Virus record (IMG/VR): IMGVR_UViG_3300020159_004070
Location: 1 to 64,000 of that record
Source: a virus
DNA: 64,000 nucleotides
Direction: 5' to 3' (one strand)
Below are positions 1 to 60,085 of the stretch, piece after piece. The translations under genes and the position numbers were made by a program. Below the pieces are notes generated by a model. The model worked only from the letters and a program-made list of their open reading frames with translations, had not been told where the DNA came from and did not search any database. The stretch's first letter is position 1, and each line of letters starts with the position of its first letter.

Positions 1-1014
1 CAAGGAGCTCAAGGAGCTGCTGGATCTTCTGGAACCTCTGGAGTCTCTATTCAAGGAGCTCAAGGAGCTCAAGGAGCACAAGGGGTACAAGGAGCTCAGG
101 GCGCTCAAGGAGCTCAAGGAGCTCAAGGAGCTCAGGGAGCACAAGGAGCTCAAGGAGCTGCTGGATCTTCTGGAACTTCGGGGTCATCTGGATCATCAGG
201 TTCATCGGGTATATCTGGAGCCTCTGGGTCTTCTGGTACTTCAGGTGTTTCTGTCCAAGGAGCTCAGGGCGCTCAAGGAGCACAAGGTGTCCAGGGAGCA
301 CAAGGAGCAGCTGGAGCACAAGGAGCACAGGGAGCTCAAGGAGCACAGGGAGCACAAGGAGCTGCTGGATCATCTGGAACTTCAGGTGTTTCTGTCCAAG
401 GAGCACAGGGAGCTCAAGGAGCTCAAGGAGCTCAAGGAGCTCAAGGAGCACAAGGAGCACAAGGTGTCCAGGGAGCACAAGGAGCAGCTGGAGCACAAGG
501 AGCACAGGGAGCTCAAGGAGCACAAGGAGCTCAGGGAGCTGCTGGCTCTTCAGGAACTTCAGGAGTCTCTGTTCAGGGAGCTCAGGGAGCTCAAGGAGCT
601 CAAGGAGCACAGGGGATTCAAGGGGCTCAAGGAGCTCAAGGAGCTCAAGGAGCACAGGGTGTCCAGGGAGCACAAGGAGCCGGTGGTACTGGTTCATCAG
701 GTACTTCTGGTGTTAAAGGAGCTCAAGGAGCTCAAGGAGCTCAAGGAGCTCAGGGTGTTCAGGGAGCACAAGGAGCAGCTGGAGCACAAGGAGCTCAAGG
801 TGTCCAGGGAGCACAAGGAGCAGCTGGAGCACAAGGAGCTCAAGGGGCTCAAGGAGCTCAAGGTGTCCAGGGAGCACAAGGAGCAGCGGGAGCGCAAGGA
901 GCACAAGGAGCACAGGGAGCGCAAGGAGCACAAGGAATCCAGGGAGCTCAAGGAGCACAGGGAGAACAGGGAGCTCAAGGAGTGCAAGGAGCTCAGGGAG
1001 CTGCTGGAGGTGGT
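1..1014 (+). repeat. Tandem Gly-Ala-Gln coding repeat
   Basis: The 9-base unit CAAGGAGCT/GCACAAGGA recurs almost without interruption across about 1 kb and encodes Gly-Ala-Gln triplets. Four or five longer modules coding GSSGTSGVS(V/I)Q are spaced among the triplets. Long near-identical DNA repeats of this kind favour slippage and recombination, so fibre length may vary between isolates and may be mis-assembled from short reads. Confidence 0.9.
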
Positions 1015-1182
1015 GGATCCAACCCAGCGTGTAGTAGTGGATGCGAGCCGTCGGCAGGCGGGAACCCAACTCAATTCATCGGAAGGGATGCTAACATTTA
1101 TCTCTCTACCCCAGATACTTGGCTACTGATTACATGTTCGACCAACTCAACACAATACTATGTACCTGGTTACCTATGCTAA
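1..1182 (+). CDS. Collagen-like (GAQ repeat) tail-fibre/adhesin protein, 5' truncated
   Basis: The reading frame is open from base 1 to a TAA at 1180-1182, so the start lies before the window. About 340 residues are Gly-X-Y triplets, mostly Gly-Ala-Gln, broken by Ser/Thr-rich modules of the type [11 protein letters not shown]. The last 54 residues are not collagen-like and hold four Cys (two in CSSGC, one in ITCS, one terminal). This looks like a trimeric collagen-like fibre with a small C-terminal knob, probably a tail fibre or surface adhesin. The triplets contain almost no Pro or Lys, so triple-helix stability would not rest on hydroxyproline. Genes for an oxygenase and several glycosyltransferases follow directly, which suggests the Ser/Thr modules are modified. 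The role as a receptor-binding fibre is inference. Confidence 0.85.
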
Positions 1183-1421: not shown

Positions 1422-1463
1422 AATTATCTCACCAAAGGGTTGTATAATAACTAAAGTTTGCAA

Positions 1464-2054
1464 ATGAAAATTCAGACAATAATTGTAGATGACTTCTATA
1501 AGAATCCTGATGAGGTAAGAGCTTTTGCGCTCGCTCAGGAATTTTCCCAACATGGTAATTATCCAGGACAAAGGACCAGATCTTTTTTGGCAGAAAACGT
1601 TAAAAAGTCCATTCAGGACATTGTCTTACCTTATGCTGGAGAGGTAATTTGGTGGGGAGACGACTCTACCGGGTCATTCCAGTATACTACTGCGAGTGAC
1701 AGGTCGTGGATTCATAGCGACGATACAACCGATTGGGCAGCGGTTTTATACCTAACACCAGATGCGCCATTGAGTTCTGGCACGGGGTTGTTCAGACATA
1801 AAAGTACCGGCGTAAGAAGATGGAAAAGTTCAGAACATCCCGACGATGTTAATGCAAATTCACCTGCACATTTGCACAGTCAAGACATGACAAAATGGGA
1901 GATGATTGATAGGATTGGTAATATTTATAATCGTATGATTCTTTACAGGGGAGATTTATTTCATGTCTCTCTTGATTATTTTGGAGCCGGAAGGAAGATG
2001 GACGCTTATTTCAAGTTTTCTTTTTCAACACCGAAAAATAATGCTCGTAGTTAA
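1464..2054 (+). CDS. 2OG-Fe(II) oxygenase-like protein (prolyl-hydroxylase fold, DUF6445-like)
   Basis: The protein carries the iron-binding triad of 2-oxoglutarate/Fe(II) dioxygenases: His84-Ser-Asp86 in SWIHSDD and a distal His167 in GDLFHVS, followed by a basic/aromatic strand (GRKMDAYFKFSF) where 2OG is normally bound. The segment between (AVLYLTP, GTGLFRHK) fits the double-stranded beta-helix core. Members of this fold hydroxylate protein or small-molecule substrates. I chose ATG 1464; a TTG two codons upstream (1458) is possible. It lies between a collagen-like fibre gene and a glycosyltransferase, so hydroxylation of the fibre is an attractive but unproven role. The 3' end overlaps the next gene by 14 bases. 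Confidence 0.75.
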   Translation: MKIQTIIVDDFYKNPDEVRAFALAQEFSQHGNYPGQRTRSFLAENVKKSIQDIVLPYAGEVIWWGDDSTGSFQYTTASDRSWIHSDDTTDWAAVLYLTPDAPLSSGTGLFRHKSTGVRRWKSSEHPDDVNANSPAHLHSQDMTKWEMIDRIGNIYNRMILYRGDLFHVSLDYFGAGRKMDAYFKFSFSTPKNNARS

Positions 2055-3336
2055 AAGACCAACAGCTTTGGTTTTTGGGTGGACTAAACCGCCGGGGAAG
2101 TATGAATATATTTCCGATCTTTTTTCCAAATCCGAAAGTTTGATGGGATGGGTAGATCTCATTTCTCTGGGCGATCAGGAGTTTTCTTCAGAGTTCCTTT
2201 TCGATTTAAAACAGGATTATAAAGCAGATCTAATCGTAGTTGTAGGCTCGAATCTTGTATCAAGATTGGCTAGAAGCAGTTTTTTTGATAGAATTTATCT
2301 TTTTTTAGAATCTCAGCCGTCAGATGTAGAATTGGCCAATCTGGTTTTGCGAAAAGTTGTTGAGAATCATTGTAACCCATATAAGCCTTTTTTTAGCGTT
2401 TTCACACCTGCGTATAAAACTGGTAAAAGGATTTTTCGGACTTACGATAGCTTAAAGGAGCAAACTTTCACCGACTGGGAATGGGTCGTCATAGACGATT
2501 CTCCTTCCGATCATACAGAGCTTTGGCAAAATTTGATTAGCATAAGTGAAAAAGATTTCAGAGTAAAGCCAGTTCGCATAAATCCAAATAGCGGCGGATC
2601 AGTAGGAAAGGTTAAAAAGAGAGCCTGTTCTCTTTCCAGTGGTAAATGGTTGGTTGAGTTGGATCACGACGATGAATTGATGAGGTCTTGTTTATCCGAC
2701 GTGTATGATGCCTCCAAGGCTTTCCCTGATGCTGGATTTATTTATAGCGACTGCTCGGAAATAGAGTCTGACGGCACTTTCCGTAAATATGATGATCGGG
2801 TTGATTGGGATTTTTATGGTGTACATGATAATTATTATAATTTCGGTTATTCTGGTCACACCTGGGTCCAGATCGACGGAAAAAAATATTTACAGCACCA
2901 CTCTCCTTCAATTAATCCAGTTACAATAAGATTTAATGTTTCGATGCCTAACCACGTTAGATGCTGGAATAAAAAGGTATATGATAGAATAGGGGGTCAT
3001 AGTGAAACCTTGCCCCTTGCGGACGATTTTGAGCTCGTTATAAGGACTTTTTTAGAGACTCGTATGGTTCATATCAGGAGGATGCTTTATCTGCAGCATA
3101 ACAATAAAAGAAGCACTGTAGACATGAATTCTTTTGAGATCAACAGGTTGTCTAGAATAATCAAAGACGTATATAATGAAAGAATACATCAGAGAATTAC
3201 CGATCTTGGTTATTTCGATTGGGAATGGGATAACTTTACAAATTCTTCTATCCACCAGGAAGCCTGGGTTCAGAGCGACTTAAGTTGCATAAGATTTGGT
3301 GAGGAGGAGCAGGTTCTAAATTACACTTACAATTAA
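2041..3336 (+). CDS. Family 2 glycosyltransferase (GT-A fold)
   Basis: The first ~110 residues form a poorly conserved N-terminal region. A classic GT2 domain then begins with FSVFTPAYKTG, EWVVIDDSPSD and a DxD-type metal/nucleotide-sugar site in ELDHDDEL (about residues 206-212), followed by Gly/Asp-rich acceptor-side sequence. It probably transfers a sugar from a nucleotide-diphosphate sugar. I chose ATG 2041 because it gives a 14-base overlap with the oxygenase gene; a longer reading from 1963 would lie deep inside that gene. It is the first of four consecutive glycosyltransferase-type genes behind the collagen-like fibre. Donor and acceptor are unknown. Confidence 0.85.
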   Translation: MLVVKRPTALVFGWTKPPGKYEYISDLFSKSESLMGWVDLISLGDQEFSSEFLFDLKQDYKADLIVVVGSNLVSRLARSSFFDRIYLFLESQPSDVELANLVLRKVVENHCNPYKPFFSVFTPAYKTGKRIFRTYDSLKEQTFTDWEWVVIDDSPSDHTELWQNLISISEKDFRVKPVRINPNSGGSVGKVKKRACSLSSGKWLVELDHDDELMRSCLSDVYDASKAFPDAGFIYSDCSEIESDGTFRKYDDRVDWDFYGVHDNYYNFGYSGHTWVQIDGKKYLQHHSPSINPVTIRFNVSMPNHVRCWNKKVYDRIGGHSETLPLADDFELVIRTFLETRMVHIRRMLYLQHNNKRSTVDMNSFEINRLSRIIKDVYNERIHQRITDLGYFDWEWDNFTNSSIHQEAWVQSDLSCIRFGEEEQVLNYTYN

Positions 3337-3340
3337 CTAA

Positions 3341-4513
3341 ATGAATAATAAGAACGTAAAAATTTGTATGAATTCAATGTTTGCCAACGAGGCACACGTT
3401 GTAGAAAGGATGCTCGAATCCTGTTATAAATATATTGATTATTGGGTTGTCCAAATCAATGGATCTACGGATGGAACCAAGGATATTGTGCAAAGGTTTT
3501 TTGACGAGAAAGGGATTCCAGGGTTTCTCTATGAGACTGAATGGAAGGGTTTTGGTCATAATAGGGATCACACACTTCAGGCCTGTCTGAATGCTGCTCA
3601 TGGTTGTGATTGGATATTGAGGATGGATGCAGACGAGCAACTAGTTGTTGATGATGACTTTGACTGGACGTTGCTGAACGATCTCTCGATACAAAGCTTC
3701 AATATTACAGCACAAGATCCGGGGGGAATCTACTTTAGAACATGGATGTGGAATGCAAAGTTACCCTGGTATTTTCAGCCCGATGTCAAACATGAGGTGA
3801 TTTCTCTCAAAGGTGCTGGTGTACATGACAACGAGTTCCAGATGGTAAATCTCCCAAGAACATTTAGGCACGTTATCACCAACGACGGAATGACGTGGTC
3901 GACAAATTTCAAATTTCTAAGAGATGCTCTCGAGCTAGAAGCTGATCAGGTTTGTTCTGGTAAAATCAGAGAAAATAATTACCATCTTTTTTACATCGGA
4001 AAAAGCTATGCCGACACATATGCAGACCCAAATTTTCCATTTGGAAAATCACACAGCGACGAATACGCTAGAAGAACCATTTATTACCTGGAACATTATG
4101 TCCAGAGGGGATATCCCAACTATCTAGAGCATACCCAACCCCCAAGATGGGATGAAATGGCCTATTTTTCTATAGTTCTTATAGGTAACGCACATAGATT
4201 CATGGGAAATATAGGCTTAGCCATAGAAAGGCTAGAAGAATCTGAATGGTACTGCCCGTTTAGAAACGAACATTTGGTATTCCTTGCTGAAATTTACGAG
4301 CAATTAGGTGAATATGAAAAGATGTTCGCTACTACAACGAGACTAGTAGAGCCGTCTAGAAAAAATCCATTTCCAGACTGGTATTTTTTGATTTACACGA
4401 ACGCATATCACGATACCGGTGAATATGTCTGGACCCTTCATGATAGGGCGAAAGGATATGTAGGCTTAAATGAGGTCAGCAAAACCTACGAATCTTTTCC
4501 TGGAATGGTTTGA
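3341..4513 (+). CDS. GT2-type glycosyltransferase with helical C-terminal region
   Basis: The N-terminal half is a GT-A glycosyltransferase: VKICMNSMFANEA, then VVQINGSTDGTKD and a DxD motif in LRMDADEQ (about residues 93-99). The C-terminal third (from about residue 260) consists of helices reminiscent of TPR repeats (IVLIGNAHRFMGNIGLAIER, LVFLAEIYEQLGEYEKM). This arrangement is typical of TPR-containing GT2 enzymes that modify proteins or cell-surface glycans. It begins 4 bases after the preceding glycosyltransferase gene and belongs to the same cluster. The specific sugar and acceptor cannot be read from sequence. Confidence 0.85.
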   Translation: MNNKNVKICMNSMFANEAHVVERMLESCYKYIDYWVVQINGSTDGTKDIVQRFFDEKGIPGFLYETEWKGFGHNRDHTLQACLNAAHGCDWILRMDADEQLVVDDDFDWTLLNDLSIQSFNITAQDPGGIYFRTWMWNAKLPWYFQPDVKHEVISLKGAGVHDNEFQMVNLPRTFRHVITNDGMTWSTNFKFLRDALELEADQVCSGKIRENNYHLFYIGKSYADTYADPNFPFGKSHSDEYARRTIYYLEHYVQRGYPNYLEHTQPPRWDEMAYFSIVLIGNAHRFMGNIGLAIERLEESEWYCPFRNEHLVFLAEIYEQLGEYEKMFATTTRLVEPSRKNPFPDWYFLIYTNAYHDTGEYVWTLHDRAKGYVGLNEVSKTYESFPGMV

Positions 4514-4555: not shown

Positions 4556-4831
4556 ATGTCAAACACAACAAGATTAACTGACGAAGAATTAAAAAACGTA
4601 TCTGAACTACGTAATGAAATATTCCAAAATGTGGAAATGCTTGGTAGGCTAAATATCCGTAAGCATTTCCTACAAAAGGATTTAGGTGAGGTTGAAATGG
4701 AAATAATCGCACATTTGCAAAAATGTGAGGAGTTGGATTCAAAGGAAAGAGACCTAACTAATTCTATTGTTGAAAAATATGGGGAAGGAAATCTTGATTT
4801 TCAAACGGGCGAATATACACCTAAAGCTTAG
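4556..4831 (+). CDS. Small coiled-coil hypothetical protein
   Basis: A 91-residue, highly charged, almost wholly helical protein. It begins with LTDEELKNVSELR and ends with a short KYGEGNLDFQTGEY motif. Small proteins of this style (helical body plus a KYG.G...TGE tail) recur in large myoviruses, but I know of no assigned function. It sits between two glycosyltransferase genes and 2 bases before the next one, so it is translated with the glycosylation cluster. Confidence 0.6.
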   Translation: MSNTTRLTDEELKNVSELRNEIFQNVEMLGRLNIRKHFLQKDLGEVEMEIIAHLQKCEELDSKERDLTNSIVEKYGEGNLDFQTGEYTPKA

Positions 4832-4833
4832 AT

Positions 4834-5886
4834 ATGAAAGAGATCGAAGCGCTCAGAAAGACAAAATATGAGCTGATAAGAACTATAAATTCCATTCAGA
4901 AAACATTGGATGATAAATCCGGAGGGAAACCGAGGATTCTTTTTGTTGCGCCTCATCTTTCTACTGGAGGTATGCCCCAGTATTTATACAAGAAAATTGA
5001 GTGCTTGTATGACCAAGCAGAGGTATTCTGCGTACAGTATAGTAATACTTCGGAGGCTTATGTAGTTCAGAGGAATAGAATTAAAAACAAAATTGGTGAT
5101 GGATTCTTTTGCTTAGGTGAAGATAAATTTGAACTACTGGATGTAATTGAAAAGGTTTGTCCAGATGTGATTCATTTCGATGATTTTGTTGAATTTTTTA
5201 TGGACGATAAACTCATACGTAAGATCTATCAAGAGGATAGACCTTATTTTATACTTGAGACTTGTCACAGTTCTAACATCTCGCCTAACGAAAAAGTTTA
5301 CTGTCCGGACAAGTTTGTTATGGTCAATCAATGGATGTGTAACAAGTTTTCTTCACTGGGTGTTCCTGTTGATATCTTAGAATACCCGATAGAAAATCTA
5401 AAAAGGCCGGAAAGAAATGAAGCATTGGGAGTTTTAGGACTGGATCCAAATGTCAAGCACGTAATCAATGTAGGCTTGTTCACGCCTGGAAAAAACCAGG
5501 CTGAGTTAATCGATTATGCAAGGCAACTTACTGAATATCCTGTCCAGTTTCATTTCATAGGAAATACAGCTCCTAATTTTCAGGATTATTGGGAGCCGCT
5601 GCTAGACAACCTGCCTAATAACTGTAAATTATGGGGAGAAAGGAACGACACTGATTTATTTTATCAGTCTGCTGATCTATTTGTTTTTACATCCAATTGG
5701 GAGCTAAATCCCATAGTTATCAAAGAAACTTTATCTTGGGGGCTTCCGATTTTAATGAGAAGGCTAGAGCCCTACTTGGATTCTTATGATAACAATCCTT
5801 TAGTTACTTACCTTGCACCTGGAGGTATGTTCGATGATAAAAATAGGAACATCAATATGATAAAAGACTTACTTAAACTGGAATGA
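4834..5886 (+). CDS. GT-B fold glycosyltransferase (GT4-like)
   Basis: After about 35 helical residues the protein has the Rossmann start of GT-B enzymes, PRILFVAPHLSTGGMPQYL, which matches the glycine-rich acceptor-domain loop of GT4 transferases. The C-terminal half has a second Rossmann domain opening with HVINVGLFTPGKNQ and the donor-site region LFVFTSNWELNPIVIKETLS, where the Glu-rich stretch corresponds to the EX7E motif of GT4 enzymes. It probably retains anomeric configuration. It is the third glycosyltransferase of the cluster and overlaps the next gene by 4 bases (ATGA). Confidence 0.85.
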   Translation: MKEIEALRKTKYELIRTINSIQKTLDDKSGGKPRILFVAPHLSTGGMPQYLYKKIECLYDQAEVFCVQYSNTSEAYVVQRNRIKNKIGDGFFCLGEDKFELLDVIEKVCPDVIHFDDFVEFFMDDKLIRKIYQEDRPYFILETCHSSNISPNEKVYCPDKFVMVNQWMCNKFSSLGVPVDILEYPIENLKRPERNEALGVLGLDPNVKHVINVGLFTPGKNQAELIDYARQLTEYPVQFHFIGNTAPNFQDYWEPLLDNLPNNCKLWGERNDTDLFYQSADLFVFTSNWELNPIVIKETLSWGLPILMRRLEPYLDSYDNNPLVTYLAPGGMFDDKNRNINMIKDLLKLE

Positions 5887-7061
5887 TAACAAAAGGTATA
5901 AACGTCTATAAAGGATTGACTAAATCAAAATTGGTAAGATTCAGGCATCCGATAAATTTTAAATTTTCGTTCAATTACGGACCCAGAGTAGATTGTACAG
6001 GTCCATCATCCGCCGGATCAGTAAGGGTTGTATTTAAGGACAAGAATTCGGAGGGTGAGATTTATTCTGGAGAAAGTAATCCAGGTCTTTTTACTACACT
6101 GTTCAGGAAATGGTATACCCCTTGGATAGTTGAGGCTTACCAGGATGACAACAAAATCTATGAATTCGATTTCGAAAAAAGCTTATATGGAAGCAAGGTT
6201 TGTATCTCTATAGATTCTTCATCACTCGGAGACACGCTTGCCTGGGTCCCAGTGGCTGAAGCTTTTCGACAAAAATTCAAATGTGACTTGTATTTGACCT
6301 CTTTTTGGAGTGAGTTGCTTTGTCAATTTTACCCGGACATCAGGTTTCAAGTACCTGGTTACAGAGAGCCCGCAACTCATGCCACTTTCGGCCTTGGGTG
6401 GTACGAAGAAACTGATAGGAACACCCATTTGAGAGACCCAAGAACAATTTCCCTGCAACAGGTAGCGGGTGACATTTTAGGAATTTCTTTGGATGGTGAC
6501 ATGAATTACAAAAACATTCCTGCTACTATATCCAAATCTAAGCCCGTGATTGATGGAAAGTATGTTTGTTTTGCTATGGATTCAACAGCAAATGCCAAAC
6601 ATTGGCATTTACTTAACGGATGGCAAAGATTGGCAGATGAGCTTGCGAAAAAAGGTTACAAGGTTGCAGTAATACAAAAACAGCAAACAAATTTGCAGGG
6701 AGTTTTAGATAAGACTGGTGACCACGATATCCTTGAAAGAGCCATTGACGTCTATCATTCTTCCTTTGTTGTTGGAATAGGATCTGGGTTGAGCTGGCTC
6801 GGCTGGGCATTAGGAAAACCTGTTGTTATGATTAGCGGATTTTCTGATCCAAAATGTGAATTTGCAACTAAGAATTATAGGGTTATCAATAAGAATGTTT
6901 GTAACGGGTGCTTTAATGATCCCTCTCACAAATTTGATCGAGGCGATTGGGATTGGTGTCCTAGACTTAAAGAAACGGAAAGAAGGTTTGAATGTACCAA
7001 GAGTATCTCCGTTGAAATGGTTCTTGAACACATAGAACTTCTAGAAAAAGAGCAACTATAA
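5883..7061 (+). CDS. Protein O-heptosyltransferase, AAH/TibC (BAHT) family
   Basis: The C-terminal half closely follows AAH and TibC, the enzymes that attach heptose from ADP-heptose to Ser residues of autotransporter adhesins. Matches include GSGLSWLGWALGKPVVMISG, the STANAKHW loop, and the four-Cys iron finger: CNGC, then WDWCP, then FECT, spaced as in TibC. The N-terminal ~100 residues are beta-rich, as in the family's beta domain. The donor domain begins near VCISIDSSSLGDTLAW. The strong match makes a protein acceptor likely; the collagen-like fibre six genes upstream, with Ser/Thr-rich modules, is the natural candidate. A matching heptose kinase is encoded at 32935. Acceptor and donor remain inference. 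Confidence 0.93.
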   Translation: MITKGINVYKGLTKSKLVRFRHPINFKFSFNYGPRVDCTGPSSAGSVRVVFKDKNSEGEIYSGESNPGLFTTLFRKWYTPWIVEAYQDDNKIYEFDFEKSLYGSKVCISIDSSSLGDTLAWVPVAEAFRQKFKCDLYLTSFWSELLCQFYPDIRFQVPGYREPATHATFGLGWYEETDRNTHLRDPRTISLQQVAGDILGISLDGDMNYKNIPATISKSKPVIDGKYVCFAMDSTANAKHWHLLNGWQRLADELAKKGYKVAVIQKQQTNLQGVLDKTGDHDILERAIDVYHSSFVVGIGSGLSWLGWALGKPVVMISGFSDPKCEFATKNYRVINKNVCNGCFNDPSHKFDRGDWDWCPRLKETERRFECTKSISVEMVLEHIELLEKEQL

Positions 7062-32934: not shown

Positions 32935-33942
32935 ATGAAAATAAAAAATATCGTTTCTTCGAAGAAGATTTTAGTTATCGGGGACGTTATATTAGATCAC
33001 TATATCCACGGTAGGGTATTCAGAGTTTCTCCAGAAGCTCCAGTTCCAGTAGTTTTAAAGAGTAATTCCGTTTATTGTCTTGGCGGAGCTGCAAACGTTG
33101 CTCAAAATGTTACCTCTTTTGGTTCTGAGTGTTACTTGCTTGGAATAACAGGTTTAGATCAATCTGGTGAAATAGTGAAAGAACTGTGCAAACAGAAAGG
33201 GGTGATAACTATGTTGGTTGAAGACCCAGCCAGAGTAACTACTGAAAAGACCAGAATTGTTGGCAACAATCACCAAATAGCAAGGATTGATTCGGAAAGC
33301 ACTGAACCAATCTCGGAACACATCCAAAATTTATTGTTGCAAGAATTTGAAAGAGTAATCTCTATAATTGACGGAGTCATAATACAGGATTATGGGAAAG
33401 GATTGTTGACAGAAATCATACTGCAAGAAATAATTAGCAGATGTAAGAAATACGAAAAGGTCGTATTGGTTGACCCTAAAGAAAAGGATTTTAATCGATA
33501 TAGTGGAGCTGATTGGATAAAACCTAATCTTTCTGAATTGAAAAATGCTGCTGAAATACAGGCCCACAAATCTCTTTCAGTCGATGAAATAATTAAAGTG
33601 GGTGACCAAATCAGAAAGAATTTCAGCTTTGGTAATATTTTAGTTACTATGTCCGAAAATGGAATGCTTGCTAAAGGTGAAAATTTTTCAGAAACAGTCG
33701 ACGGTTATAAGATTGATGTAACAGATGTCTCTGGAGCGGGAGATACAGTTAGTGCTGTTTTCATGCTTATGCACCTTTCTGGGGTTTGCATAAAGGACAC
33801 ATTGGATATTTCTAATCTCGCTGGATCTATGGTTTGTAGGATTTCTGGCGCAGTTCCAATAAACACAAATGACTTATTCGTGGAAGCATTGAACTTGGGA
33901 ATGTGTTTAGAGAATTCTTTTTTCGAGAATTTACTGGTTTAA
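32935..33942 (+). CDS. hldE: D-glycero-beta-D-manno-heptose-7-phosphate kinase (HldE kinase domain)
   Basis: A PfkB-family kinase matching the N-terminal domain of HldE/RfaE: VIGDVILDHYIHG, RVSPEAPVPVV, LGGAANVAQN, TEKTRIVGNNHQIARID and the catalytic anion-hole motif DVSGAGDTVSAVF. It would phosphorylate heptose-7-phosphate at C1 to give heptose-1,7-bisphosphate, the second step of ADP-heptose synthesis. It stops at 335 residues, so the C-terminal adenylyltransferase domain of bifunctional HldE is absent. It lies between the portal and ligase genes, away from the heptosyltransferase at 5883. The conserved RVSPEAPVPVV points to the heptose kinase branch rather than ribokinase. Confidence 0.88.
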   Translation: MKIKNIVSSKKILVIGDVILDHYIHGRVFRVSPEAPVPVVLKSNSVYCLGGAANVAQNVTSFGSECYLLGITGLDQSGEIVKELCKQKGVITMLVEDPARVTTEKTRIVGNNHQIARIDSESTEPISEHIQNLLLQEFERVISIIDGVIIQDYGKGLLTEIILQEIISRCKKYEKVVLVDPKEKDFNRYSGADWIKPNLSELKNAAEIQAHKSLSVDEIIKVGDQIRKNFSFGNILVTMSENGMLAKGENFSETVDGYKIDVTDVSGAGDTVSAVFMLMHLSGVCIKDTLDISNLAGSMVCRISGAVPINTNDLFVEALNLGMCLENSFFENLLV

Positions 33943-39480: not shown

Positions 39481-39514
39481 AAACTTTATTGCTTTTCTTT
39501 TCTAAAATATCTTG

Positions 39515-40396
39515 ATGATATTAAGTAGAAAATTAAACCGTTTGGGATCTGTCAGTAAGGATTTATTCTCGAAATCCGCTCTTCAGGCATCTTCCTTTTT
39601 GGATCTCGTTTCTTCGAAGATTTACGAAAACCAAAATTCAGGTCTTAATATTTCTTGTTTTGAAATTCCCCAAAATTTTATCGTTCCAAACTTTGACCTC
39701 GTAGAAGATGAATCTGAGGATGCAAGAAAAATTTGGGAAATCTATAGGTTACTGAAAACCAACAACCACAGAGTTGTATTTTTTTTACCATCTCAATTTT
39801 TTCTAGGAAGCCAATTGGAGGATGCAGTGGCATCAAGTAAACTCATAGTTAATGATTTAGCTTGTTTTCTAGATCAGATTGGAGTTTCTGGTCCTTCTAT
39901 TGTTTTACGAATAGGAAGTGCATATGGTGCTAGAAAAGTAACTATGCAAAGATTTTGTGATAATGCAGAATCCTTGGGCAACAAAGTGCTATCGAAGATA
40001 GCTGTTTGTAATGACGAAAAACCTTCGTTGTTTTCAGTTACAGATTTATTGAGCGGGGTTTACTATACAAGCAAAATTCCTATTGTCTTTAGGTTATTGC
40101 CACATCAATTCAATAACGGAGGTCTTTCGATCAGGGAGGCTTTATTTCTTTCGGTCTCTACTTGGCCTGTTGGTCAAACTCCTTTATTCATTCACTCAGA
40201 GTCCTCTGAGGTGGATCAAAACGGGATAGCTTTATCACCTTCACCTTCAAATTATTTAAAACACCGGATACCAACTTTTGGATTGGATATAGACATTGTT
40301 ATTGATTCCCCGATTGAATCAAGGGCGTGTCTTAAATATCTTTCTGAATTGATCTCTTTGAAACCAATGGTTATCAATAAAATAGAGAAGAAATAA
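39515..40396 (+). CDS. UV-damage endonuclease-like protein (UvdE family)
   Basis: A TIM-barrel-type protein with features of UvdE: an early SCFEIPQNFIVPNFD region, VVFFLPSQFFLG, SIVLRIGSAYGARKVTMQRF (the GxxxG..K helix after a beta strand), then IPIVFRLLPHQFNNGGLS containing a metal-binding His, and PLFIHSESSE as the final His strand. Such enzymes nick 5' of UV lesions. I chose ATG 39515; a TTG one codon earlier is possible. It is followed by Fpg/Nei-type glycosylase and exonuclease genes, forming a repair group. Residue-level match is partial, so confidence is moderate. Confidence 0.6.
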   Translation: MILSRKLNRLGSVSKDLFSKSALQASSFLDLVSSKIYENQNSGLNISCFEIPQNFIVPNFDLVEDESEDARKIWEIYRLLKTNNHRVVFFLPSQFFLGSQLEDAVASSKLIVNDLACFLDQIGVSGPSIVLRIGSAYGARKVTMQRFCDNAESLGNKVLSKIAVCNDEKPSLFSVTDLLSGVYYTSKIPIVFRLLPHQFNNGGLSIREALFLSVSTWPVGQTPLFIHSESSEVDQNGIALSPSPSNYLKHRIPTFGLDIDIVIDSPIESRACLKYLSELISLKPMVINKIEKK

Positions 40397-54224: not shown

Positions 54225-55124
54225 GTGGGTCTTAAGAATAGCAAAATTTACTTCTTAACGTTTTGCACAGAGGGAGAACCTTTTGATCTTGGAAAGAACT
54301 TAAGCTCAAATGCCAGGAAGATAAAATTGCTTCTGACCCCCTTTTTTGATGATGTTATAATTTACACACCAAGGACACTGAAAGAGTGTGAAGGATCGGA
54401 AAATTTTTGTAATTTCCATGAGGGAGGATTTAGTCTTAATCCAGGATTAAACACTATCGGATGCGGTGATTTTAAATCGTTCATTATTGATAAAACGCTC
54501 TCAGAAATAGACGAGGGTGATCTCTTGATGTATCATGATTGCAATTTTTTGAAATATCCGCAGTACTGGCAAACAGATTGGGAAAAAATCAAAGAAACGT
54601 GCGAGTTGTTATTAGGGTCAAACAAATCCGATTTTTTTGCACCTTTTGAATCATTGATGGATGGATTCCCGAATATTGTCAGGACGCACGGAAAAAGGTT
54701 TACTACAGATAGGATAATCCTTGATCCAATCGAGTCAGAATTGGTGTCTTGGTGTTATGAAATTGCATCGAGCAGAATCATTATAAAGAACACTCAAGAT
54801 TCCAGAGATTTCTTCTCTGAGTACTTAGCATTGTGCAAAAGAAAAGACCTCTTAAAATTATACCCAGACCCAAATCCATACCCAGAATTTACACACAGTT
54901 GTCCAGAACAACATGTATTGAATTGTTTGATTTATAAATGGATATTGGATGGGAAATTAGATCCATCTTTTCCCCGATATATGTTTTATAATAGAAAATT
55001 CAGAATAGATGATAATTTGATGCTTTATGAAAATTATACACTAACGAAATATATGGCTTCGAAGTTCATAAAAGGTATGGTTGAAAAAATCAACTGTCTA
55101 GGTCAAAACAATAAAGAAAATTAA
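54225..55124 (+). CDS. Glycosyltransferase-like protein A (tandem paralogue)
   Basis: A 299-residue protein from GTG 54225. The paralogue downstream shares the start (KIYFLTFCTEGEPFD vs KIYFVTFCSQGEPFD), NPGLNTIGCGDFKSFI, YHDCNFLKYPQYWQTDWE, SWCYEIASSRIIIKNT and PYPEFTHSCPEQHVLNCLIY. The YxDCN acidic motif after a beta strand, and the overall pattern, resemble small GT-A glycosyltransferases (capsular galactosyltransferase-like), but the match is weak. No DxD motif is certain. It opens a second metabolic/glycosylation island. Confidence 0.5.
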   Translation: MGLKNSKIYFLTFCTEGEPFDLGKNLSSNARKIKLLLTPFFDDVIIYTPRTLKECEGSENFCNFHEGGFSLNPGLNTIGCGDFKSFIIDKTLSEIDEGDLLMYHDCNFLKYPQYWQTDWEKIKETCELLLGSNKSDFFAPFESLMDGFPNIVRTHGKRFTTDRIILDPIESELVSWCYEIASSRIIIKNTQDSRDFFSEYLALCKRKDLLKLYPDPNPYPEFTHSCPEQHVLNCLIYKWILDGKLDPSFPRYMFYNRKFRIDDNLMLYENYTLTKYMASKFIKGMVEKINCLGQNNKEN

Positions 55125-55128
55125 GGTC

Positions 55129-56058
55129 TTGGAAAAAGTTAAAATCTACTTTGTTACCTTTTGTAGTCAGGGAGAACCATTTGACGGAGGTAAAAATCTG
55201 AGACAAAACTCAAGCAACATTAAAACCGTTCTTTCTGCCTTTTTTGATGATGTGTTTGTGTTTACCCCGCAGTCGCTCAAACTTTGTGATGGAGCTGATG
55301 ATTTTTGTAACCCACAGGGGGAAGATTTCCCACTGAACCCCGGAATGAGCTCAATAGGATGTGGGGACTTCAAGGCGTTTATCGTAGACAAGATTCTTTC
55401 AGAAATAGAAGAGGGGTCAATTCTTTTTTATAATGATTGCAATTTTTCGAAATACCCTCAATATTGGCAAACTGATTGGGAAAATCTGCAACAAGTGTTT
55501 GAATTCCTGCTGGACGAAAATTTTTCGGATTTTTATTTCCCTTTTGAATCACCTCTAGAGGATAAGCTAAATCTCGTCAGATATCACGGAAAGAGATATA
55601 CTACTGATTACATAATTCGTAATCATGAAGAGAGTGAGATAATTTCACGTTGTTATGAAATAGCATCCAGTAGAATGATAATTAGAAACACTGCAAGGTC
55701 TAGAGAATTCTTTTCTGAATTCAAGAATCTTTGTAGAAAAAGTGATCTGCTATCTAAATATCCAAATCCAAATCCATATCCAGAATACACACACAGCACA
55801 ATAGATCAACACGTCTTGAACTGTTTGGTGTATAAACACATATTGGACGGAAAACTTCATTCGGGATTTCCTAAATTTATGCTGAAGAACAGAGTTTTAA
55901 GGATTGACGAGAATTTAACTATCCTTAAAAATGAAGAATTGTCGAAATATATGGACACGAAATCCATAAAGAGTATGATTGAAAATATTCAAAACAAGAG
56001 AAATGATAACGATTTTCGAGGGTATCAGGAATTCAGGGAAGACTTTTTTATCACATAA
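55129..56058 (+). CDS. Glycosyltransferase-like protein B (tandem paralogue)
   Basis: 309 residues from TTG 55129, 4 bases after copy A. It aligns with A over the full length, including FYNDCNFSKYPQYWQTDWEN and SRCYEIASSRMIIRNT. Both copies begin with non-ATG codons, unusual in this window. The 3' end overlaps the P-loop kinase gene by 56 bases. Function is as uncertain as for A; the duplication suggests different acceptors or dosage. Confidence 0.5.
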   Translation: MEKVKIYFVTFCSQGEPFDGGKNLRQNSSNIKTVLSAFFDDVFVFTPQSLKLCDGADDFCNPQGEDFPLNPGMSSIGCGDFKAFIVDKILSEIEEGSILFYNDCNFSKYPQYWQTDWENLQQVFEFLLDENFSDFYFPFESPLEDKLNLVRYHGKRYTTDYIIRNHEESEIISRCYEIASSRMIIRNTARSREFFSEFKNLCRKSDLLSKYPNPNPYPEYTHSTIDQHVLNCLVYKHILDGKLHSGFPKFMLKNRVLRIDENLTILKNEELSKYMDTKSIKSMIENIQNKRNDNDFRGYQEFREDFFIT

Positions 56059-56544: not shown

Positions 56545-57942
56545 ATGTGTGGAATAATTATTACAAAGAATTCTGACTTAACCACGTTAGATTTAATTAA
56601 ACATAGAGGAATTGAGAAATCCTTAATCAGTAGGGATGGTGTTGTTCTCTGTCATCATAGGTTGCCAATACAAACTGTAGATGGCGATGATTGGAATCAG
56701 CCTATAGAAATATCGGATGGAATATTTCTAATGTTTAACGGTGAGATTTTCAATTATGACCAGGAAAAGTTTGGATCTGATGTAGAATATTTAACAAATA
56801 CTTTTAGTAGGTACAAAGGAGGAAGTTTTGAAATGTTTTGTGGACTATTTGTTCCCGTCATTCAAACTTGGGATGGATTCTGGGCTATCGTTTTGTACGA
56901 TTCTAACTCGGGTGAATTAATTTCATTTACAGACCCACTTGGAAAGAAATGTCTTTATTACAACAGTATGGGAGAGGTTTGCTCGGAAATCAAAGGCCTG
57001 GTTTCTACAAATTCCCCAATCGACGAAACGTATATAAGCACAGTAAGGAAGTTTGGATACAACACAGACGAAAGAACTCCATATTCTGACATCAAAAGGA
57101 TTCTGCCCAACAACATTTATTTTTTCAACATTGAAAGCATAGAGGTAGTCCAGGTTTATAAAACATATTACAAAGGTTTTGACCACCCTATTTCTGAGCT
57201 GGTTGGAAAAAGCTATGATGACCACTTGGAGTGGCTTTGGCAGAAGATGTTCGAGTCTGTAAAAAATAGATTGGTTTCTAAAGACTATCCAATTTCACTT
57301 CTAATCTCCGGTGGGTTGGATTCCTCAATCATTGCATCTATTCTCAACGAACTTGAAGCTGATGTCAGGTGGTTTAGTATAGAAAATGGGGAAAATGAGT
57401 ATGTTGAAATTTTATACAAATTCTTAGGTAAGGAAGTTTCATTCTTGGACTACCAGATGGATGATTCCAAAATTTCTGAAATCTATAAAAAATGGAATGA
57501 AACCCCGGTTGATCTAGGTTCTGTAGTTCCACAATTTCATTTGTTCGAAGCAGTTAAGAACTTTGGTGGATATCGAATAGTTTTATCCGGCGATGGGGCT
57601 GATGAACTTTTTGGTGGTTATAAAAGAATTCACGAATACGATTCACAAAAATCTGACATATTTGATGAGCTGTCCTTTTATCATTTGCCAAGATTGGACA
57701 AAATGTCCATGGCTCACACTTTAGAACTAAGAAGCCCATTTCTCCATTTGGATATTGTAAGATTTGCTCTACATCTCCCCCTTGAATGGAGAATGGATAA
57801 AAAAATTCTGAAAGACACGTTCTCACCTTTACTCCCTGACGAAATAGTGAATCGAAAAAAAGCACCATTGAAGAACCCAGAAATAAAGGAGGATAAGATA
57901 GCTTACCGATATAAAGCTGTTGACCTGTTTTTGAGAGATTAA
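56545..57942 (+). CDS. asnB: Glutamine-hydrolysing asparagine synthetase (AsnB-like)
   Basis: Begins MCGIIITK, giving the catalytic Cys of class II glutamine amidotransferases. FNGEIFNYDQ is the glutamine-site loop. The synthetase half shows SLLISGGLDSSIIASIL, the ATP pyrophosphatase P-loop, then VLSGDGADELFGGYKR and HTLELRSPFL. It could make asparagine from aspartate, or amidate a sugar/glycan, since AsnB relatives occur in polysaccharide clusters. Length is 465, shorter at the C-terminus than E. coli AsnB (554). It sits among glycosyltransferase-like genes. Confidence 0.88.
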   Translation: MCGIIITKNSDLTTLDLIKHRGIEKSLISRDGVVLCHHRLPIQTVDGDDWNQPIEISDGIFLMFNGEIFNYDQEKFGSDVEYLTNTFSRYKGGSFEMFCGLFVPVIQTWDGFWAIVLYDSNSGELISFTDPLGKKCLYYNSMGEVCSEIKGLVSTNSPIDETYISTVRKFGYNTDERTPYSDIKRILPNNIYFFNIESIEVVQVYKTYYKGFDHPISELVGKSYDDHLEWLWQKMFESVKNRLVSKDYPISLLISGGLDSSIIASILNELEADVRWFSIENGENEYVEILYKFLGKEVSFLDYQMDDSKISEIYKKWNETPVDLGSVVPQFHLFEAVKNFGGYRIVLSGDGADELFGGYKRIHEYDSQKSDIFDELSFYHLPRLDKMSMAHTLELRSPFLHLDIVRFALHLPLEWRMDKKILKDTFSPLLPDEIVNRKKAPLKNPEIKEDKIAYRYKAVDLFLRD

Positions 57943-59203: not shown

Positions 59204-60085
59204 ATGAATAAAGAATTAACAATTGGTCAGACTCCACTTATTCCATTACGAATCGATGGATTCACAATTTGGGGAAAAGCAGAATTCATGAATCCGTCGG
59301 GTTCTGTTAAAGATAGGCCAATCTATAACATTTTAAAATCTGGTCTTGCTGAAGGAACACTAAGCAAAGGAGACACAGTGGTAGAAGCCACCAGTGGAAA
59401 TGCTGGGATTTCTTTTGCTATGTTTTGTTCTCAAATGGGACTGAAATGCGTTATCGTCATGCCTTCCAATATGAGTGAGGAAAGAAAGAAGATGCTAAAA
59501 TTTTATGGAGCTGACCTAATTGAAGTCGGACCCGGAGATTTCGACGGAGCAATACAATTAAGAAACGAACTTGCAGAAAAGAACGGATGGTTTAACGGAA
59601 ATCAGTTTAACAATCCAAGGAACGTGGAGGCACATTACAACGGGACTGGTGTTGAATTGATGTACCAATGTAAGCATTTCGATATTTTTCCTTCAGCATT
59701 TGTTTTAGGAACCGGAACCGGTGGAACGTTAATGGGTGCTGGAAGATTGCTGAGCGAGCAATTTCCAGATATTGAAATTGTAGCAATCGAGCCTTCAGAA
59801 TCTCCCGTAATGAGCGGGGGTCAGCCTGGATTGCACGGAATTCAAGGAATCGGTGACGGGTCAAAATTTATGGTAGAACTTTCTTTTCTCGATCATATCA
59901 TAACAGTCTCTACAATAGAAGCTACCGAAATGTCCCTAAGATTGGCAAAGGAGTATGGAATATTTGTTGGGATAAGCGCTGGTGCTAACGTTCTAGCATC
60001 CCTTAGGTATTGTCAAAAATTCGGAAAGAATGACGTCATAACAATCCTCTGTGATCGGGGGGAGAGGTATTTAAGTTGCATGTAA
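59204..60085 (+). CDS. cysK: Cysteine synthase (O-acetylserine sulfhydrylase family)
   Basis: A 293-residue PLP enzyme of the beta family. The PLP lysine is Lys36 in MNPSGSVKDRP; the substrate loop is EATSGNAGISFA; the phosphate-binding loop is LGTGTGGTLMG; VGISAGANVLAS follows near the C-terminus. All catalytic motifs look intact. It would make cysteine from O-acetylserine (or a related donor) and sulfide. As a phage-encoded metabolic gene it may support cysteine supply late in infection. A terminator lies upstream; no clear promoter box is visible in the 28 bases before the start. Confidence 0.9.
   Translation: MNKELTIGQTPLIPLRIDGFTIWGKAEFMNPSGSVKDRPIYNILKSGLAEGTLSKGDTVVEATSGNAGISFAMFCSQMGLKCVIVMPSNMSEERKKMLKFYGADLIEVGPGDFDGAIQLRNELAEKNGWFNGNQFNNPRNVEAHYNGTGVELMYQCKHFDIFPSAFVLGTGTGGTLMGAGRLLSEQFPDIEIVAIEPSESPVMSGGQPGLHGIQGIGDGSKFMVELSFLDHIITVSTIEATEMSLRLAKEYGIFVGISAGANVLASLRYCQKFGKNDVITILCDRGERYLSCM

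Follow-up and report, generated by a model that had tools for sequence, protein, structure and literature searches.

The phage represented in the window (the whole stretch of 64,000 nucleotides analysed here) probably carries a system in which an AAH/TibC-type protein O-heptosyltransferase without a beta-hairpin thumb, hereafter the thumbless BAHT, O-heptosylates serines of the phage's own collagen-like fibre. We infer the activity, the donor and the acceptor, and put the probability of this reading at roughly 0.66. We also lean, with somewhat less assurance, towards a wider version, in which phages would own the larger AAH/TibC branch, dedicated to the O-heptosylation of serines in Gly-Ser/Thr-Ser fibres, together with phage GT4 and GT2 enzymes and sometimes phage ADP-heptose genes; some gammaproteobacteria would use the same chemistry on GSS/GTS lipoproteins. 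New here are the thumbless branch, how widely viruses carry it and its association with collagen-like GSS/GTS fibres; our literature search found no report of a phage BAHT and none of GSS tail-fibre repeats.

Family, fold and donor residues of the window BAHT

5883..7061, + strand: thumbless BAHT (AAH/TibC-type protein O-heptosyltransferase, GT9/GT-B; activity predicted from sequence), 392 aa, ATG start

The profile search of the window open reading frames matched this protein to TIGR04414, the AAH/TibC equivalog, at 275.6 bits (E=5.8e-82; curated cut-off 200), and TibC (4rap) was matched by sequence over residues 23-379 at E=3.2e-54; a chance match is excluded by these values. Identity to TibC was about 36%. 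The protein also matched the GT9 Pfam family and, weakly, Pfam TibC_1st (15.1 bits; cut-off 27), and PHROGs contained no family matching it. A ColabFold model (pLDDT 92.9, pTM 0.89) contained the N-terminal beta-barrel TibC fold and superposed on TibC with a Z score of 40.1 and 1.9 A over 357 residues (23-392 onto TibC 21-391). The next structural matches, at Z about 20, were the LPS heptosyltransferases WaaC and WaaF (GT9), which share the GT-B fold and the likely ADP-heptose donor but have no N-terminal barrel, no iron finger and a lipid acceptor. Sequence and modelled structure both confirm the protein as a real AAH/TibC family member. The earlier note, which had assigned it to this family and proposed the structural comparison as a check, was right on this point, with the amendment that the protein belongs to a separate thumbless branch.

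The functional residues of TibC (PMC4358343) were transferred to the window BAHT via sequence alignment. The iron ligands of TibC, C339, C342, C358 and C370 (PMC4358343), aligned with C340, C343, C359 and C371 in the CNGC, WCP and FEC motifs, as had been read from the cysteine pattern, and the GLSW...GWA...PVV.ISGFS segment, also said to follow AAH/TibC, had its corresponding stretch in TibC. TibC D110, T226, K230, R286 and W305 were all kept, as D117, T235, K239, R286 and W305, and F368 was kept as F369. All nucleotide-sugar-binding residues, whose loss had been named as counter-evidence, were thus retained by alignment. The four cysteines are present in the order that was taken to argue for an active enzyme, but by themselves they are no proof of activity.

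Two positions would suit an enzyme with the same fold and fibre target that transfers another ADP- or NDP-sugar in place of heptose. The position of Pro-300, the stereoselectivity residue of TibC (PMC4358343), is Gly in the window BAHT, and R286, which contacts adenine in TibC (PMC4358343), is replaced by Thr in 47 of 97 viral BAHT domains, although it is Arg in the window. We regard this alternative as unlikely, since all five donor and catalytic residues in the window match TibC and since an HldA-like kinase gene is present in this phage and in related ones.

32935..33942, + strand: HldA-like heptose-7-phosphate kinase

The kinase matched TIGR02198 at 304 bits (E=1.1e-90), below the curated cut-off of 345; the next unrelated family, a hexose kinase, scored far lower (69 bits), and the best solved structure was HldA 4e84 (E=2.9e-47). 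It was also strong in seven related records of the close clade and present in the huge phage LR756501, and was missing in the neighbouring subclade L123-L130. GmhA was above cut-off in LR756504. In the window's own record, the HldA-like kinase was the only ADP-heptose gene found; HldC, GmhA and GmhB-like families were not found, and the host would therefore have to supply them.

Other genes of the window include a weak match to the UV damage endonuclease UvsE at 39512-40396 (33.9 bits; cut-off 124) and two neighbouring paralogous proteins of about 300 aa each, with no NCBIfam match, at 54225-56058. Asparagine synthase-like (56545-57942) and cysteine synthase-like (59204-60085) genes are unusual metabolic genes for a phage.

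A thumbless, mainly viral branch

The beta-hairpin thumb, with its hydrophobic tip F265/V266, has been described as highly conserved in the BAHT family and is required for dodecamer formation by TibC (PMC4358343). In the window BAHT, TibC GFVWNHIPWGAEDFTG is replaced by the short turn GVLDKTG, about nine residues shorter, and the hairpin was absent from the ColabFold model. The earlier note had overlooked this absence. Among 187 aligned BAHT domains, the thumb motif, defined as about 22 residues with WNxIPxGAED, was carried by 82 of the 87 bacterial ones and by none of the 97 viral ones first examined. Thumb-bearing BAHTs did turn up on some IMG/VR contigs when thumb-bearing bacterial sequences served as seeds for a scan, so that the rule that viral BAHTs are thumbless is not absolute.

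Because the thumb is missing, a TibC-like dodecameric ring is not expected to form. The TibC thumb mutants F265D and V266D are dimers and inactive on TibA (PMC4358343), and for this reason the window BAHT could have lost its activity along with the thumb, unless something compensates. These mutants are what favours reading the protein as a relic, degenerate or structural, devoid of transferase activity since the thumb for the active dodecamer has gone. We consider this very improbable: D110, K230 and W305 (TibC numbering) and the four Cys were invariant across the 187 aligned domains, including 97/97 viral ones, and a relic would not keep them. Moreover, the frame is uninterrupted, and BAHTs are fused with other glycosyltransferase domains in many phages.

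BAHT relatives were found on at least 551 IMG/VR contigs and on 134 contigs from a set of 84,980 bacterial and archaeal species. Only four records among 50,697 annotated phages encoded one, namely Microcystis phage Mel-JY01 and the huge phage records LR756501, LR756503 and LR756504. In Mel-JY01, the BAHT (TIGR04414, 317 bits) is fused into a protein of 1,226 aa that carries the annotation FkbM methyltransferase. At three further loci (L005, L014 and L160), fusion proteins of 1,150-1,460 aa combined the BAHT with methyltransferase, glycosyltransferase and GT4 domains, and at four other viral loci (L239, L240, L316 and L340) two or more divergent copies adjoined, several with an unusual insert at the thumb position. 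A contig filed under a Flavobacteriales genome (L028) was dropped as a bacterial case; GT4, fibre genes and a viral-type BAHT give it the appearance of a phage contig.

Trees of 176 rows brought the thumb-bearing proteins together in a single group of 71 rows, three of them odd members (SH-aLRT 100), whether the thumb columns were included or left out. The window BAHT was placed in a viral-only clade of 27 rows (SH-aLRT 99-100), far from TibC. Judged by sequence, it is part of a separate, thumbless, mainly viral deep branch and no direct AAH/TibC orthologue; a phylogeny against bacterial AAH/TibC proteins had been suggested previously as a check. The thumb-bearing bacterial-type BAHTs on some IMG/VR contigs would fit the chance acquisition of an ordinary bacterial AAH/TibC gene, or a contig contaminated with host DNA. 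We rejected this explanation for the window in view of its viral-only clade and of the conserved phage gene order described below.

The phage locus and its link to GSS/GTS arrays

1..1182, + strand: collagen-like (Gly-X-Y) tail fibre (PF01391), C-terminal end, truncated at the contig edge; predicted acceptor
22..48, + strand: GSSGTSGVS block in the fibre, candidate Ser acceptors
163..252, + strand: 30-residue block in the fibre, candidate Ser acceptors
367..393, + strand: GSSGTSGVS block in the fibre
544..570, + strand: GSSGTSGVS block in the fibre
691..708, + strand: GSSGTS block in the fibre
1458..2054, + strand: DUF6445 protein (PF20043, E=1.4e-16; phrog_1644, named minor coat protein)
1963..3336, + strand: GT2-family glycosyltransferase (PF00535, E=4.5e-14), conserved cassette member
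3341..4513, + strand: GT2-family glycosyltransferase (PF13704 / PF00535), conserved cassette member
4556..4831, + strand: 91-aa protein, function unassigned, conserved in the cassette
4834..5886, + strand: GT4-type glycosyltransferase (PF00534, E=2.8e-11), 4-base overlap with the BAHT start

The source is a 65,464-bp IMG/VR virus record with T4-type terminase, sheath and neck genes. The order DUF6445 - GT2 - GT2 - small protein - GT4 - BAHT - neck - 258-aa protein - terL - sheath was kept, wholly or in its right-hand part, across about 29 related contigs. Because the record carries T4-type genes and the place before neck-terL-sheath is maintained in these contigs, the window BAHT is a phage gene. 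The earlier note had described a phage-borne member next to a repeat-rich fibre; the first part was correct, but the two are not adjacent, since several genes and about 4.7 kb separate the BAHT from the end of the upstream fibre coding region at 1182. No autotransporter was found among the flanking genes, which instead encode the collagen-like fibre, glycosyltransferases and neck proteins. A GT4 homologue was fused to, adjacent to or within 10 kb of the BAHT in 75 of 106 viral thumbless lineages, compared with none of the 64 thumb-bearing lineages.

The true start of the GT2 gene at 1963..3336 is probably an internal ATG near 2041. The HxD motif (H86, D88) of the DUF6445 protein was kept in 16/18 homologues, and the protein is possibly a 2-oxoglutarate oxygenase-like enzyme; lying in the cassette near a collagen-like fibre, it could be a hydroxylase-like enzyme that acts on the fibre.

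The window fibre scored 155.9 bits against PF01391 Collagen (Pfam cut-off 27.2) and matched PHROG tail fibre families. It consists mostly of GAQ triplets interrupted by GSSGTSG blocks; at other viral BAHT loci, arrays of up to 920 Gly triplets were mostly GSS and GTS. Collagen-like phage tail proteins have been reported, for example in prophages of E. coli O157:H7 (PMC3368898). These share the Gly-X-Y triplets (PF01391) with the window fibre; the fibres described here differ in their GSS/GTS triplets (or GAQ with GSSGTSG blocks) and in their link to a protein O-heptosyltransferase.

Within the lineage that shares the neck gene, broader G-x-(S/T) arrays gave no signal of association with BAHT (p=0.73 and 0.27). 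The motif was narrowed to G[ST]SG[ST]SG after the data had been seen, and this form was then examined in a new sample selected by motif alone, described below. Within the neck-gene lineage, the motif occurred in 28/39 loci with BAHT and in 1/8 without (p=0.003), and after dereplication at 90% in 10/14 and 0/6, respectively (p=0.011; another dereplicated test, p=0.008). One locus (L248) was entered as BAHT-bearing, its BAHT lying elsewhere on the record. The relatives without BAHT tended to carry GPT/GSN/GAT arrays instead.

In a sample drawn without regard to BAHT, viral contigs were picked by DNA pattern for a 10-residue GSS/GTS motif, with GPTGPTGPTG as the control, and the 50 longest or nearly longest records per motif were searched for TIGR04414 above cut-off. 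BAHT was present in 22/50 GSS-motif records and in 0/50 GPTGPTGPTG records (p=2.4e-8). Among the GSS-motif records it was found in 12/15 of those of at least 80 kb and in 4/18 of those of 40-80 kb. The remaining 28 of the 50, most of them shorter than 80 kb, gave none; GSS/GTS arrays therefore also occur without BAHT.

Across dereplicated lineages, the motif lay near 68 of 113 thumbless BAHTs and near none of 64 thumb-bearing ones, a comparison that amounts to a single phylogenetic contrast because the thumb split corresponds to about one event on the tree; an independent-pairs test had only three pairs available. In three gammaproteobacteria (L024, L025 and L026), chromosomal thumbless BAHTs adjoin lipoproteins with GTS/GSS repeats, an independent genomic setting that has no phage fibres. 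At a Schekmanbacteria locus (L027), the GSS/GTS motif lies about 5 kb from the BAHT. In Mel-JY01 (L018:2-3049, + strand), a long open frame with GSS/GTS arrays runs on the strand opposite to the annotated genes 1-651 and 739-2298, and the fibre of this phage may be misannotated.

When arrays at viral BAHT loci were chosen only as Gly triplets, position 3 was Ser in 78% and Thr in 4%, and position 2 was Thr in 44% and Ser in 42%. The position-3 composition matches the modification of Ser, not Thr, reported for TibC and AAH (PMC4358343).

An active BAHT might instead act on a surface protein of the host or on a glycan of its envelope and so alter the infected cell, for instance to prevent superinfection, with the fibre arrays merely belonging to the same phage lineages. 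Phage glycosyltransferases often modify host envelopes, and the PHROG names of the GT2 neighbours include GtrB-like O-antigen conversion. Such a target appears improbable, slightly more so than the transfer of another sugar, because the cassette is locked to the structural genes neck-terL-sheath and because BAHT tracks the GSS/GTS array, not collagen-like fibres generally, even within one lineage. The bacterial thumbless copies, which adjoin GSS/GTS lipoproteins with no phage fibre involved, also argue against it. The strong association of BAHT with GSS/GTS arrays supports the earlier suggestion that the fold was recruited to modify a phage protein, which is probably correct.

Proposed O-heptosylation of the fibre and its significance

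In the proposed system, the thumbless BAHT would transfer heptose from ADP-heptose to serine hydroxyls, with D117 activating the Ser hydroxyl and T235, K239, R286 and W305 holding ADP-heptose. The predicted acceptor sites are the position-3 serines of Gly-(Ser/Thr)-Ser triplets, represented in the window fibre by the GSSGTSG blocks. The four-Cys finger may still build a back-to-back dimer, and without the thumb no dodecamer ring would follow; an enzyme without the ring would suit a long rod-like acceptor better than a beta-helix autotransporter. The adjoining GT4 and the two GT2 enzymes probably add further sugars to the glycan, while the HldA-like phage kinase would raise the ADP-heptose supply and the host would carry out the remaining steps. 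The outcome would be a glycosylated fibre that is stiffer, more soluble or better shielded.

The window BAHT has in common with TibC/AAH (BAHT; TIGR04414; PDB 4rap, 4rb4) full-length homology, the N-terminal beta-barrel, the GT-B core, the catalytic Asp, the ADP-heptose-binding residues and the four-Cys finger. It differs in being thumbless, probably with no dodecamer, and phage-encoded, and its partner is a collagen-like GSS/GTS fibre together with GT4, not an autotransporter. Other glycosylated collagen-like proteins offer a parallel: BclA of Bacillus spores and worm cuticle collagen, which has glycosylated Thr. Phage enzymes glycosylate virions of the mycobacteriophages Che8 and Rita (Freeman et al. 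2023, cited in PMC11256854), as phage-encoded glycosyltransferases would modify a virion protein here; in those phages, however, capsid proteins are modified, and as far as is known from that account, no AAH/TibC-type enzyme and no heptose pathway have been reported.

BAHTs have been described as pathogen enzymes that use a thumb-built dodecamer on autotransporter adhesins, whereas most of the relatives found here are viral and thumbless, with probably another type of acceptor; the automatic name 'autotransporter strand-loop-strand O-heptosyltransferase' is wrong for the thumbless branch. If the proposed system is real, it would be a viral glyco-collagen system parallel to the glycosylated collagens of animals, and it would test whether Ser heptosylation needs a dodecamer. 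The GSS/GTS fibre arrays of many environmental phages would gain a function, as the sites of a virion modification that possibly affects adsorption, stability and recognition.
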